Origin: Sneathiella glossodoripedis JCM 23214 | GTDB taxonomy: Bacteria; Pseudomonadota; Alphaproteobacteria; Sneathiellales; Sneathiellaceae | Length of the DNA: 64,000 nt | Assembly: GCF_000616095.1 (NCBI RefSeq) | Contig: NZ_BAMS01000003.1 | Location: 1 to 64,000 of the forward strand | Direction of reading: 5' to 3' | Shown: positions 1,179 to 31,900 of the stretch, one piece after another | Position numbering within the stretch: position 1 is the stretch's first letter | Layout: each line of letters opens with the position of its first letter | Position numbers and translations under genes: made by a program | Notes under the pieces: model-generated | Seen by the model: the letters and a program-made list of their open reading frames with translations, nothing else | Told to the model about the DNA's origin: nothing | The model's database searches: none

Positions 1179-3208
1179 ATGGCGACAAAAAGCGCAGAGG
1201 CGGCAGAAGTCCAGGATCAACGCGAAGATGCACCGGACAGCCCCTTGATTGATGCCTCCCAGGCTGCAGTTAAAAAAATGCTCGCAAAGGCCAAGGAAAA
1301 GGGCTTTGTAACATTTGATGAACTGAACGAGGTATTGCCTCAGGATCAGATGTCTTCAGAACAGATTGAAGACACCATGTCCCTGCTTTCTGAAATGGGC
1401 ATCAACGTTGTTGAAAATGACGAAGCCGGCGAAGAAAACGCCGCTGCGGACGATGCCGACGAAGAAGCAGAAGAAACCGCTGTTGAAAAAACACCGGAAA
1501 AAACCACCACGACCGGTGATCGAACCGATGACCCTGTGCGCATGTATCTGCGTGAAATGGGCACCGTGGAACTTCTTTCGCGCGAAGGTGAGATTGCCAT
1601 CGCCAAGCGGATCGAGGCCGGTCGCGGCAAAATGATTGGCGCCATCTGCGAAAGCCCGCTGACCATTCGGGCGATCCTGAACTGGCGTGAATTGATGCTG
1701 CAGGAACAGTTGTTGCTGCGGGACGTGATTGATCTGGATGCAACTTACGGGGCCGGGGCTGCTGCTGAAAAAGCACTGCAGGAAGGCTTCGATGAGGATA
1801 GCGACGACGATCTGCCAGCGGCCGGACTGGATTCCGATGACGATGACAGTGATTCTGACTCTGACGAGGAAGAAGTGATGAGGACGGCAATCCGATCTCA
1901 CGTCGTGAAGACGATGATGAGGATGAGGCCGAAGAAAACACAATGTCACTGGCCGCGCTTGAGGAAACTCTCAAGCCTCAGGTGTTTGAACGCTTTGATG
2001 AAATCGCAAAGACCTACAAGAAGCTTCATAAACTGCAGGAAGCTCGCCTGACTGCTGCGCTGGAAAATGACTCCATTCCAAAAGCGCAGGAAAAGAAATA
2101 TGAAAAGCTGAAAGGCGAACTTGTTAAATTGATGGACGATGTTCATCTGACAAACAACCGCATTGAAGCCCTTGTTGATCAGCTCTATGGCATCAATCGC
2201 CGTTTGATGAGCCTTGAAGGCAAGCTGTTGCGTCTGGCTGAGAAGCACAAGGTCTCCCGCGCAAGCTTCCTTGAAAACTATTTCGGCTCAGAGCTGGATC
2301 CGGGCTGGATGGAAAAAGTTTCCAAGCTGAAAGCCAAAGGCTGGAAAGATTTCGTTGATACGGAAACCAGCGGCATTAATGAAATTCGCAGTGAAATCAT
2401 TAAAATTTCCTCTGAATTTGGAATGCCCATGACGGAATTCCGTCGCATCGTGAGCTCGGTTCAAACTGGTGAACGTGAAGCGAGCCGTGCCAAGAAAGAA
2501 ATGGTTGAGGCAAACCTGCGTCTCGTTATTTCAATCGCCAAAAAATACACCAACCGCGGTCTGCAATTCCTTGATCTCATTCAGGAAGGGAATATCGGCC
2601 TGATGAAAGCGGTGGATAAGTTTGAATATCGCCGCGGTTACAAATTCTCCACCTATGCAACATGGTGGATCCGTCAGGCGATTACCCGCTCTATTGCGGA
2701 TCAGGCGCGCACCATTCGTATTCCGGTTCATATGATCGAAACCATCAACAAACTGGTGAGAACGTCTCGTCAGATGTTGCATGAAATTGGCCGTGAACCG
2801 ACACCCGAAGAACTGGCGGTCAAGCTGGGTATGCCACTTGAAAAAGTGCGCAAAGTGATGAAAATCGCCAAAGAGCCGATCAGCCTTGAAACACCGATCG
2901 GTGACGAGGAAGACAGTCATCTGGGTGATTTCATTCAGGATGAAAATGCGGTTCAGCCTCTTGATGCCGCTATCCAGTCGAATTTGCGTGAAACCACAAC
3001 ACGGGTTCTCGCATCCTTGACCCCGCGTGAGGAACGTGTCCTGCGGATGCGCTTTGGTATCGGTATGAATACGGACCACACACTCGAAGAAGTCGGGCAG
3101 CAATTCTCGGTTACGCGTGAACGTATCCGTCAGATTGAAGCCAAGGCTTTGCGTAAACTCAAGCATCCAAGCCGTTCACGCAAACTGCGCAGCTTCCTCG
3201 ATACCTGA
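1179..3208 (+). CDS. rpoD: RNA polymerase primary sigma factor RpoD (sigma-70), one frameshift
   Basis: This is the housekeeping sigma factor directing RNA polymerase to most promoters. The ATG at 1179 is chosen because AGGAG sits at 1164–1168; an in-frame TTG at 1155 has no such signal. Region 1.2 ([11 protein letters not shown]), an acidic non-conserved region, regions 2–3 ([26 protein letters not shown]) and a region 4 helix-turn-helix ([15 protein letters not shown]) are all present. The frame breaks near 1871–1879 inside the acidic stretch. Upstream reads DSDSDEEE and downstream reads [10 protein letters not shown], so adding one base (for example making a GG) restores about 676 residues, a normal length. 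Because rpoD is essential, this is almost certainly a sequence error and not a pseudogene. Confidence 0.95.
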
Positions 3209-30808: not shown

Positions 30809-31270
30809 TCAGGCAGCTTTGCCTTCGATCAGATTGCCTGGTTTGCCAATCTTGATTGTTTGGGGTTTCAGGGCTTCGGGAATTTCTTTTTGAAGAGAAA
30901 TTTTCAGAAGGCCCTTATCCATTTCAGCGCCCATCACCTTGATGTTGTCGCTCAGATCAAAGCGGTAATCCAGTGACAGGTTTGTCAATCCGCGATGCAG
31001 ATATTCCACATTGCCATTTTCTGAGCTGTCCTCAGCTTCGGATTTGGCTGTGATGGCGAGGGTGTTCTGGGTCAAAGTGATTTCAATGTCATCTTCGCCA
31101 AAACCCGGAGCCGCGATCACGATCTCATATTTATCGTCCGCGGATTTCTTCACGTCATAGCTGGGTTGGCTTGAATCTGTTGAAGCGCGTTCCAATTCGT
31201 TGAAGAGACGGCCAAATGTGCCGTAACCAATCGTTGGACGCAATACGGGTGTAAAATCAAAAGTACGCAT
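30809..31270 (-). CDS. Small heat-shock protein, Hsp20/alpha-crystallin family
   Basis: This 153-residue IbpA-like chaperone binds unfolding proteins and keeps them refoldable. The N-terminal arm carries FDFTPVLRPTIGYGTFGRLF. The alpha-crystallin domain spans about residues 37–130, with YEIVIAAPGFGEDDIEIT, the YLHRGL segment and a late GLLKISL strand. A C-terminal extension contains the IxI-like TIKIGK anchor. The start at 31270 has GGAGG nine bases upstream; an open frame extends further but would run through the leader. Upstream lie a sigma-32 promoter and a leader that fits a ROSE thermometer, so both transcription and translation should rise with heat. Confidence 0.92.
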   Translation of the reverse strand: MRTFDFTPVLRPTIGYGTFGRLFNELERASTDSSQPSYDVKKSADDKYEIVIAAPGFGEDDIEITLTQNTLAITAKSEAEDSSENGNVEYLHRGLTNLSLDYRFDLSDNIKVMGAEMDKGLLKISLQKEIPEALKPQTIKIGKPGNLIEGKAA

Positions 31271-31358
31271 TTTAATATCCTCCTTCAGAGCAATATATCT
31301 GTGGGTTCCCCCGTTTTCGGGCCGAACCATGTGATATCGAAGCCAATTGCAGGCCTTC
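31271..31358 (-). promoter_or_regulatory. ROSE-like RNA thermometer in the hsp20 leader
   Basis: In the transcript, TTGCT (complement of 31289–31293) can pair with AGGA of the Shine–Dalgarno sequence (complement of 31278–31281), leaving the G bulged, and is extended by ATA/TAT pairs outside. The UU(G)CU:AGGA helix with a bulged G is the defining element of ROSE thermometers in Rhizobiales hsp leaders. The loop between is seven bases. The leader of about 88 bases has room for the additional upstream hairpins typical of ROSE, but I did not fold them. Confidence 0.6.
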
Positions 31359-31365
31359 GATACGC

Positions 31366-31396
31366 CATATGTAAGAAGTGCAAAAAAGCTTTCAAG
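31366..31396 (-). promoter_or_regulatory. RpoH (sigma-32) promoter of hsp20
   Basis: On the minus strand, CTTG (complement of 31393–31396) is followed after exactly 17 bases by CTTACATATG (complement of 31366–31375). The alphaproteobacterial sigma-32 consensus is CTTG-N17-CYTATNTNNG; only one of the defined positions differs. Transcription would start near 31358. Confidence 0.7.
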
Positions 31397-31459
31397 TTGC
31401 TATGAGAGAAAATTAACAATTTTAGATTATTTAGAACAATGAACAACAGAAGGATGGCT

Positions 31460-31900
31460 ATGAGTACAGGGCGAAGTGAGCAAGAAGCCAACGTCGAGGG
31501 AGCGATTTTTTTCTCCAGAACCTATGACGAGGCCCTGTTAATGGTGGTCGAGGCAAGAGAATATCTGTTGGGGCCGGGAAAGGCCGCCGTTCGCAAGCTG
31601 CCCAGCGAAGCCAGCTTCTGCTATGCGACAGAATCGCTCCGTCTTACGACACGATTGACCGAATGCATGTCATGGTTGATGTTTCAAAGAGCCGTCACAG
31701 AGGGCGAAATTACCGCTGAAGAAGCACAGGCAGAGGAATGCCATTTACAGTTTCAGGAAACCTGTCTGCCTGATGAGCAGGTCAGTAATCTGGAGTTGTT
31801 GCCGCCGGGTCTTGTCTCGTTGCTGGAGAGAAGCGAATCCCTGTATCGGCGTATTTTAAGGCTGGATCAGCTGGCGATAGAAAAATACCGTGCCGGCTAA
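31460..31900 (+). CDS. DUF1465 family protein
   Basis: This is a conserved alphaproteobacterial protein of about 146 residues with no proven function. Family marks are FFSRTYDEALLMVVEAREYL at the N-terminus, the central ESLRLTTRLTECMSWLMFQRA and the C-terminal LRLDQLA. It is helical and acidic, without membrane segment or signal peptide, so it is probably cytoplasmic. The ATG at 31460 is preferred because AGAAGGA lies just upstream; in-frame ATGs at 31439 and 31454 would add a few residues but lack a ribosome site. It is divergent from hsp20 and convergent with rpmE. Confidence 0.75.
   Translation: MSTGRSEQEANVEGAIFFSRTYDEALLMVVEAREYLLGPGKAAVRKLPSEASFCYATESLRLTTRLTECMSWLMFQRAVTEGEITAEEAQAEECHLQFQETCLPDEQVSNLELLPPGLVSLLERSESLYRRILRLDQLAIEKYRAG

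Follow-up and report, generated by a model that had tools for sequence, protein, structure and literature searches.

The hsp20 gene of Sneathiella glossodoripedis JCM 23214 is very probably under two layers of heat control, an RpoH-type promoter and a ROSE-type RNA thermometer in the leader of its mRNA. The window analyzed here is the whole 64,000-nt stretch at positions 1 to 64,000 of contig NZ_BAMS01000003.1. As a reading of the sequence, this double-control mechanism is well supported by conservation, by base-pair changes in relatives, and by a covariance model from which the window's own leader was held out. Melting of the leader, ribosome access, and RpoH dependence would be expected by analogy with the experimentally studied class. 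In the proposed mechanism, heat-activated RpoH would transcribe hsp20 from CTTGAA-N19-CATAT, with an mRNA start near 31360. The leader of about 90 nt would fold as a ROSE-type thermometer with three hairpins. The first two would be the more stable; the third would be weak and, through pairing of AUAUU-G-CUCU with GGAGGAUAU, would close the Shine–Dalgarno (SD) sequence at low temperature. Warming would melt the third hairpin and permit ribosome binding, so that Hsp20 would be made mainly when it is hot. The features and their basis are as follows:

30809–31270, minus strand: hsp20, alpha-crystallin-type small heat-shock protein, 153 aa (open reading frame; Pfam HSP20 PF00011, 1.9e-13)
31275–31296, minus strand: predicted SD (thermosensor) hairpin over the Shine–Dalgarno sequence, AUAUU-(bulged G31291)-CUCU / GGAGGAUAU (RNAalifold, pair counts, RF00435 alignment)
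31279–31283, minus strand: Shine–Dalgarno GGAGG (sequence and conservation)
31304–31328, minus strand: predicted ROSE hairpin II, GGUUC..CCCG-AAAA-CGGG..GAACC (single folds)
31337–31360, minus strand: predicted ROSE hairpin I, UCGAAGGCC-UGCAAUU-GGCUUCGA (Rfam alignment and pair changes)
31366–31375, minus strand: -10 region CTTACATATG, containing CATAT (conserved in orthologous leaders)
31391–31396, minus strand: -35 box CTTGAA of the putative RpoH-type promoter (conserved in orthologous leaders)
31408–31417, minus strand: GTTAATTTTC, conserved motif in the region that separates hsp20 from the divergent DUF1465 gene (conservation)

The hsp20 gene and its orthologous leaders

The ATG at 31270 is the start of hsp20 on the minus strand, and the stop side lies at 30809. 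The frame is also open from an ATG at 31330, and the longer ORF takes in most of the leader. We preferred 31270 because this ATG is common to the relatives; a start at 31330, inside the leader, is unlikely. A relative of Hsp20 was present in all 24 genus genomes searched. The closest match in each genome was taken, and G006, whose only match was distant (E 1.8e-16), was left out, giving 23 orthologous leaders. ATGCGY stands directly 3' of the SD in all 23 orthologues taken. By eye, the same leader layout was seen in 23/23, including G004, whose contig begins only 143 nt before the gene.

A predicted RpoH-type promoter

The earlier note had placed a sigma-32 promoter before hsp20. This is well supported, as CTTGAA and CATAT are kept in the orthologous leaders and two sigma-32 genes are encoded in the genome. 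On the minus strand, CTTG (31396) is followed by N17 and CTTACATATG (31375–31366). The -35 box reads CTTGAA in 21 of the 23 leaders, CTTGAT in one, and GTTGAA in one. CATAT is exact in 16, matches in 4/5 letters in five and in 3/5 letters in two; the -10 box is poor in G010 and G023. The promoter motif was found at a near-constant distance of 116–129 nt 5' of the ATG in 23/23 leaders; here the first 110 nt of every upstream stretch (<=170 nt) were scanned and the best match was kept, a procedure that favours finding one. When the 200 nt upstream were shuffled with dinucleotide frequencies preserved, CTTGAA-N14–19-CATAT arose in 4/5000 and the looser CTTG-N17–21-CATAT in 54/5000 (once and twice in the window, respectively, the former counted on both strands), with patterns picked post hoc, after the site had been seen.

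The E. coli RpoH consensus is quoted as CTTGAA-N13–18-CNCCATAT (PMC3669281). When the window sequence CTTGAA-N16-TTACATAT was compared with it, CTTGAA, CATAT, and the spacing fitted, whereas the CNC part did not. This likeness points to an RpoH (sigma-32) promoter, and hsp20 transcription is predicted to depend on RpoH. The transcript would begin near 31360, 5–7 nt past the -10 region; this expected start coincides with the beginning of the Rfam ROSE alignment.

Both sigma-32 genes exceed the cut-offs of NCBIfam models for sigma-32: the gene on contig C12, a single open frame of 296 aa, reaches 379.9 bits on NF005693 (cut-off 315), and a stretch on contig C10 reaches 338.5 bits on NF005143 (cut-off 241). 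Neither gene passes TIGR02392 alone (cut-off 323.1). Sigma-32 matches in the C10 stretch (C10:80618–81426, 16.6 kb beyond the window end) are split over two frames that overlap (313.4 and 37.6 bits), which looks like a frameshift in the gene or the assembly. The gene for the housekeeping sigma factor, rpoD, is partly present in the window itself, at 2471–3166 on the plus strand (NF004208, 562.3 bits).

A ROSE-type leader with conserved base pairing

The ROSE motif consists of a U(U/C)GCU arm that pairs with the SD and leaves a G bulged, and is also present in the RF00435 consensus. In the window leader, hairpins I, II, and SD run in the order of the ROSE family. The arm AUAUU-G-CUCU (31296–31287) can pair with GGAGGAUAU (31283–31275) with G31291 bulged. 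Within it, the UUGCU-type arm at 31293–31289 lies opposite the SD at 31283–31279, and TATTGCT is invariant in 23/23 leaders. In the SD of these leaders, AG is invariant, the first two G are kept in at least 90%, and the last G is G or A. The pattern TTGCT-N5–14-GGAG[GA]ATA, likewise picked post hoc, arose in 0/5000 of the shuffles used for the promoter motif, and a count on both strands of the window gave it once. The leader lies directly 5' of a small heat-shock gene, has an arm with a bulged G, and has hairpins upstream of the SD hairpin; these are characters of the ROSE class, whose members also become more accessible at the SD and better translated as temperature rises, with no protein required.

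The earlier note had drawn a ROSE helix with a bulged G over the SD. The pairs are as drawn, and RNAalifold, run on the 23 leaders with no structure supplied, returned hairpin I with 8 pairs and the SD hairpin with 9, and double-sided changes occur in 7 of these 17. Hairpin II was absent from this consensus of 23 leaders. The pairing is conserved in relatives: for hairpins I and SD in 23 sequences, 97.2% of 390 cells were paired, against 93.5% in column shuffles, and 7 pairs showed double-sided changes, against 2.8. Versions of the structure slid along the alignment were 36–52% paired, at most 51.5%. These shuffle and slid controls are not probabilities, because related sequences were compared and the structure comes from their own consensus.

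The two hairpins contribute differently. Hairpin I has double-sided changes in 5/8 pairs and 96.2% of cells paired across the 23 sequences. In the SD hairpin, 98.1% of cells are paired; of its nine pairs, five are invariant, two change on both sides, and two on one side only. The SD helix is thus too invariable for strong covariation, and its SD side would stay conserved as a ribosome-binding site anyway. A fold like hairpin II was seen in 22/23 leaders, the exception being G009, when 41-nt stretches were folded and judged by eye; its pair counts were omitted because MAFFT misaligned the hairpin II columns.

Covariance-model searches

The Rfam ROSE model, a run proposed in the earlier note, did match at full length: RF00435 (model 1–94) covers the leader and start codon at 31264–31360 (minus strand). 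The score of 23.8 bits (E 0.21), however, is below the gathering score of 45 bits; the best score in the genus was 40.7. We therefore classed the leader as ROSE-like and did not assign it to RF00435 itself. The outcome that the earlier note named as a refutation, absence of a covariance-model hit, applies here only when the gathering score is taken as the measure. ROSE_2 (RF01832) and ROSE_3 (RF02523), which represent the same kind of element, gave no match in the window leader at E<=10. Across the 3.6-Mb genome, RF00435 at E<=10 gave two places, each covering an hsp20 start; the genome has three HSP20 matches.

A covariance model (R1) was built from 22 orthologous leaders of the same genus, with the window's own held out. 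R1 scored the window at 73.2 bits (31265–31365, minus strand; rough E 1.5e-13), and the next place in the genome at 20.6. Elsewhere in this genome, R1 also picked up L116, L117, and L119 (16.4–20.6 bits), which have no hsp20 and were taken as chance. R1 gave the second hsp20 leader only 16.4 bits, and therefore does not reach paralogues.

In relatives, RF00435 at E<=1 matched in 19/40 genomes (own included), among them 14/24 of the genus, with 21 of 22 places over an hsp20 start; at this threshold, 10/24 genus genomes had no match. At E<=0.1, matches came from 26/190 genomes of the class; they amount to 28 places, of which 26 cover an hsp20 start. Filtering was stricter in this 190-genome search, whose output did not include the window's own genome; five RF00435 places were common to both searches. 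Chance matches are opposed by the 21/22 and 26/28 places over hsp20 starts. The gathering score was reached by no RF00435 match in the 190 class genomes. The Rfam gathering score for ROSE is strict, and since all 26 hsp20-start places fall below it, annotation by gathering score understates such leaders.

Folding energy and predicted heat response

Folding of the leader, also proposed earlier, gave a mixed answer. One computed MFE kept the inner SD pairs, but the other kept none, the outer SD pairs were missing, and the plain folding energy was unremarkable (z -1.45, with 19/200 shuffles as good, and z -1.23). An AUAUC/GAUAU extension of the middle hairpin competes for the outer SD pairs. As a test of the helix, thermodynamic folding alone speaks neither for nor against it, and the case therefore rests on comparative evidence.

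The isolated SD hairpin was computed at -5.4 kcal/mol at 25 °C and -2.2 kcal/mol at 42 °C. Computed SD openness at 25, 42, and 50 °C was 0.09, 0.24, and 0.38 for the window leader, and 0.12, 0.20, and 0.30 on average for the 23 leaders; the G007 leader was predicted to be mostly open at all temperatures. ROSE elements contain non-canonical pairs that nearest-neighbour energies do not model. For this reason the predicted melting, which goes in the right direction but is small, is weak evidence either way.

Alternative explanations

The near-invariance of the SD helix, the unremarkable MFE and z-score, and the modest predicted melting would all agree with heat control by transcription only. The RpoH promoter would then be real, and the likeness of the leader to ROSE would reflect a strong, conserved site for ribosome binding together with hairpins that stabilise the mRNA, with no sensing of temperature. 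We consider this quite improbable: a ribosome-binding site does not need the invariant UAUUGCU arm upstream of the SD, the changes that do occur keep the SD-hairpin pairing at the level given above, and the leader resembles a class with experimentally tested members.

Another possibility is that the conserved bases serve mainly to bind proteins, either a repressor or proteins acting on the divergent DUF1465 gene; PMC4166951 recounts that ROSE, too, was initially interpreted as a protein-binding site. The DUF1465 gene lies at 31439–31900 on the plus strand and is divergent in 22/23 orthologous loci; the remaining contig ends too early. A GTTAATTTTC-like motif, [GA]TTAA[TA][TA]TT, is kept in 20/23 leaders, 138–150 nt 5' of the hsp20 ATG. 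Within the leader, however, conservation follows base pairing in hsp20 RNA. Moreover, the ROSE stretch lies downstream of the hsp20 promoter, and the GTTAATTTTC motif is outside it. We consider this explanation very improbable, and a promoter combined with a ROSE-type thermometer remains our preferred reading.

The GTTAATTTTC motif ends 21 nt before the DUF1465 gene, which encodes a protein of unknown function, and could be the DUF1465 promoter or a shared site. That it forms a third control layer linking DUF1465 to the heat response in the genus is unlikely.

Comparison with known systems

RF00435 represents the Bradyrhizobium hspA ROSE1 class, and the window leader shares with it the three-hairpin order, the UUGCU arm over GGAGGA, the bulged G, and the position at a small heat-shock gene start. 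It differs in that two closing-stem positions of the SD hairpin are missing and the outer pairs are mostly mismatched in the Rfam alignment; its score also contrasts with the 59–71 bits of the RF00435 matches of Afipia, Bradyrhizobium, Devosia, and Roseiarcaceae. Among 20 named Hsp20 loci searched with Rfam, RF00435 scored above the gathering score in five (Afipia, two Bradyrhizobium, Devosia, and Roseiarcaceae; six matches in total). Among 15 Hsp20 loci at E<=5, ten had ROSE, ROSE_2, or ROSE_3 at the hsp20 start, including Sphingomonas (40.1 bits) and Telmatospirillum (34.9 bits), and five had no match to any of the three. Sub-threshold matches at hsp20 starts were to ROSE_2 in Amylibacter and to ROSE_3 in Brevundimonas, a Caulobacteraceae, and an alphaproteobacterial MAG locus.

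The ROSE-like thermometers of Pseudomonas ibpA, as described in PMC3669281, likewise combine a sigma-32 promoter with an SD-closing hairpin at a small heat-shock gene; they have two hairpins against three in the window, and control by both sigma-32 and the thermometer was shown experimentally there. The same source lists ROSE in Caulobacter crescentus, Salmonella, E. coli, and Pseudomonas, with >40 alpha- and gamma-proteobacterial candidates. In Sinorhizobium meliloti, a ROSE element precedes RpoH-dependent small heat-shock genes (PMC3989490). ROSE-like motifs are reported for a Roseobacter-clade strain (PMC3230580). For Gluconobacter oxydans, the passage on RF00435 in PMC5756330 places it before hsp20, with no transcription start detected. 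In view of these published cases and of the Rfam matches at Hsp20 loci, both double control and the spread of ROSE beyond Rhizobiales are already known. The mechanism read by the earlier note is thus supported by comparison, but its claim of novelty, an extension of ROSE to a new lineage, was anticipated by publications on Caulobacter, Roseobacter-clade, and Gluconobacter species. The finding enlarges a known heat-sensor class by one alphaproteobacterial genus and is otherwise ordinary biology; the Hsp20 relatives, DUF1465, and the ROSE matches in the class all point to the alphaproteobacteria.

Other hsp20 genes and atypical ROSE matches

The hsp20 gene at C12:1416073 has its own RF00435 match (26.3 bits) and CTTGAA..CATAT. 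For the hsp20 at C12:451599, two Rfam searches gave no RF00435 match. Its leader contains GAAGCGCC..GGGCTTC and then a CUCG..CGAG hairpin over the SD, judged by eye from one fold. This third leader (L004, about 1890–1970, minus strand, near C12:452.0 kb) resembles a shorter ROSE-like element missed by Rfam.

The exceptions to placement at hsp20 were L126 and L127, where no hsp20 was found, and L025, before a reverse transcriptase. L126 (1501–1578, minus strand) and L127 (1501–1573) scored 35.2 and 32.6 bits on RF00435 with no detectable hsp20 after them, and are followed by short ORFs of 22 and 61 aa; in the family of the L126 genome, 10 other ROSE places were found, all at hsp20. These matches may be remnants of hsp20 genes that have disappeared, or reflect ROSE control of other genes. 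At L025 (1501–1586), a weak ROSE match (E 0.86) lies in a structured region that could be a retron RNA; a gene for a 342-aa reverse transcriptase (PF00078) follows 49 nt downstream.
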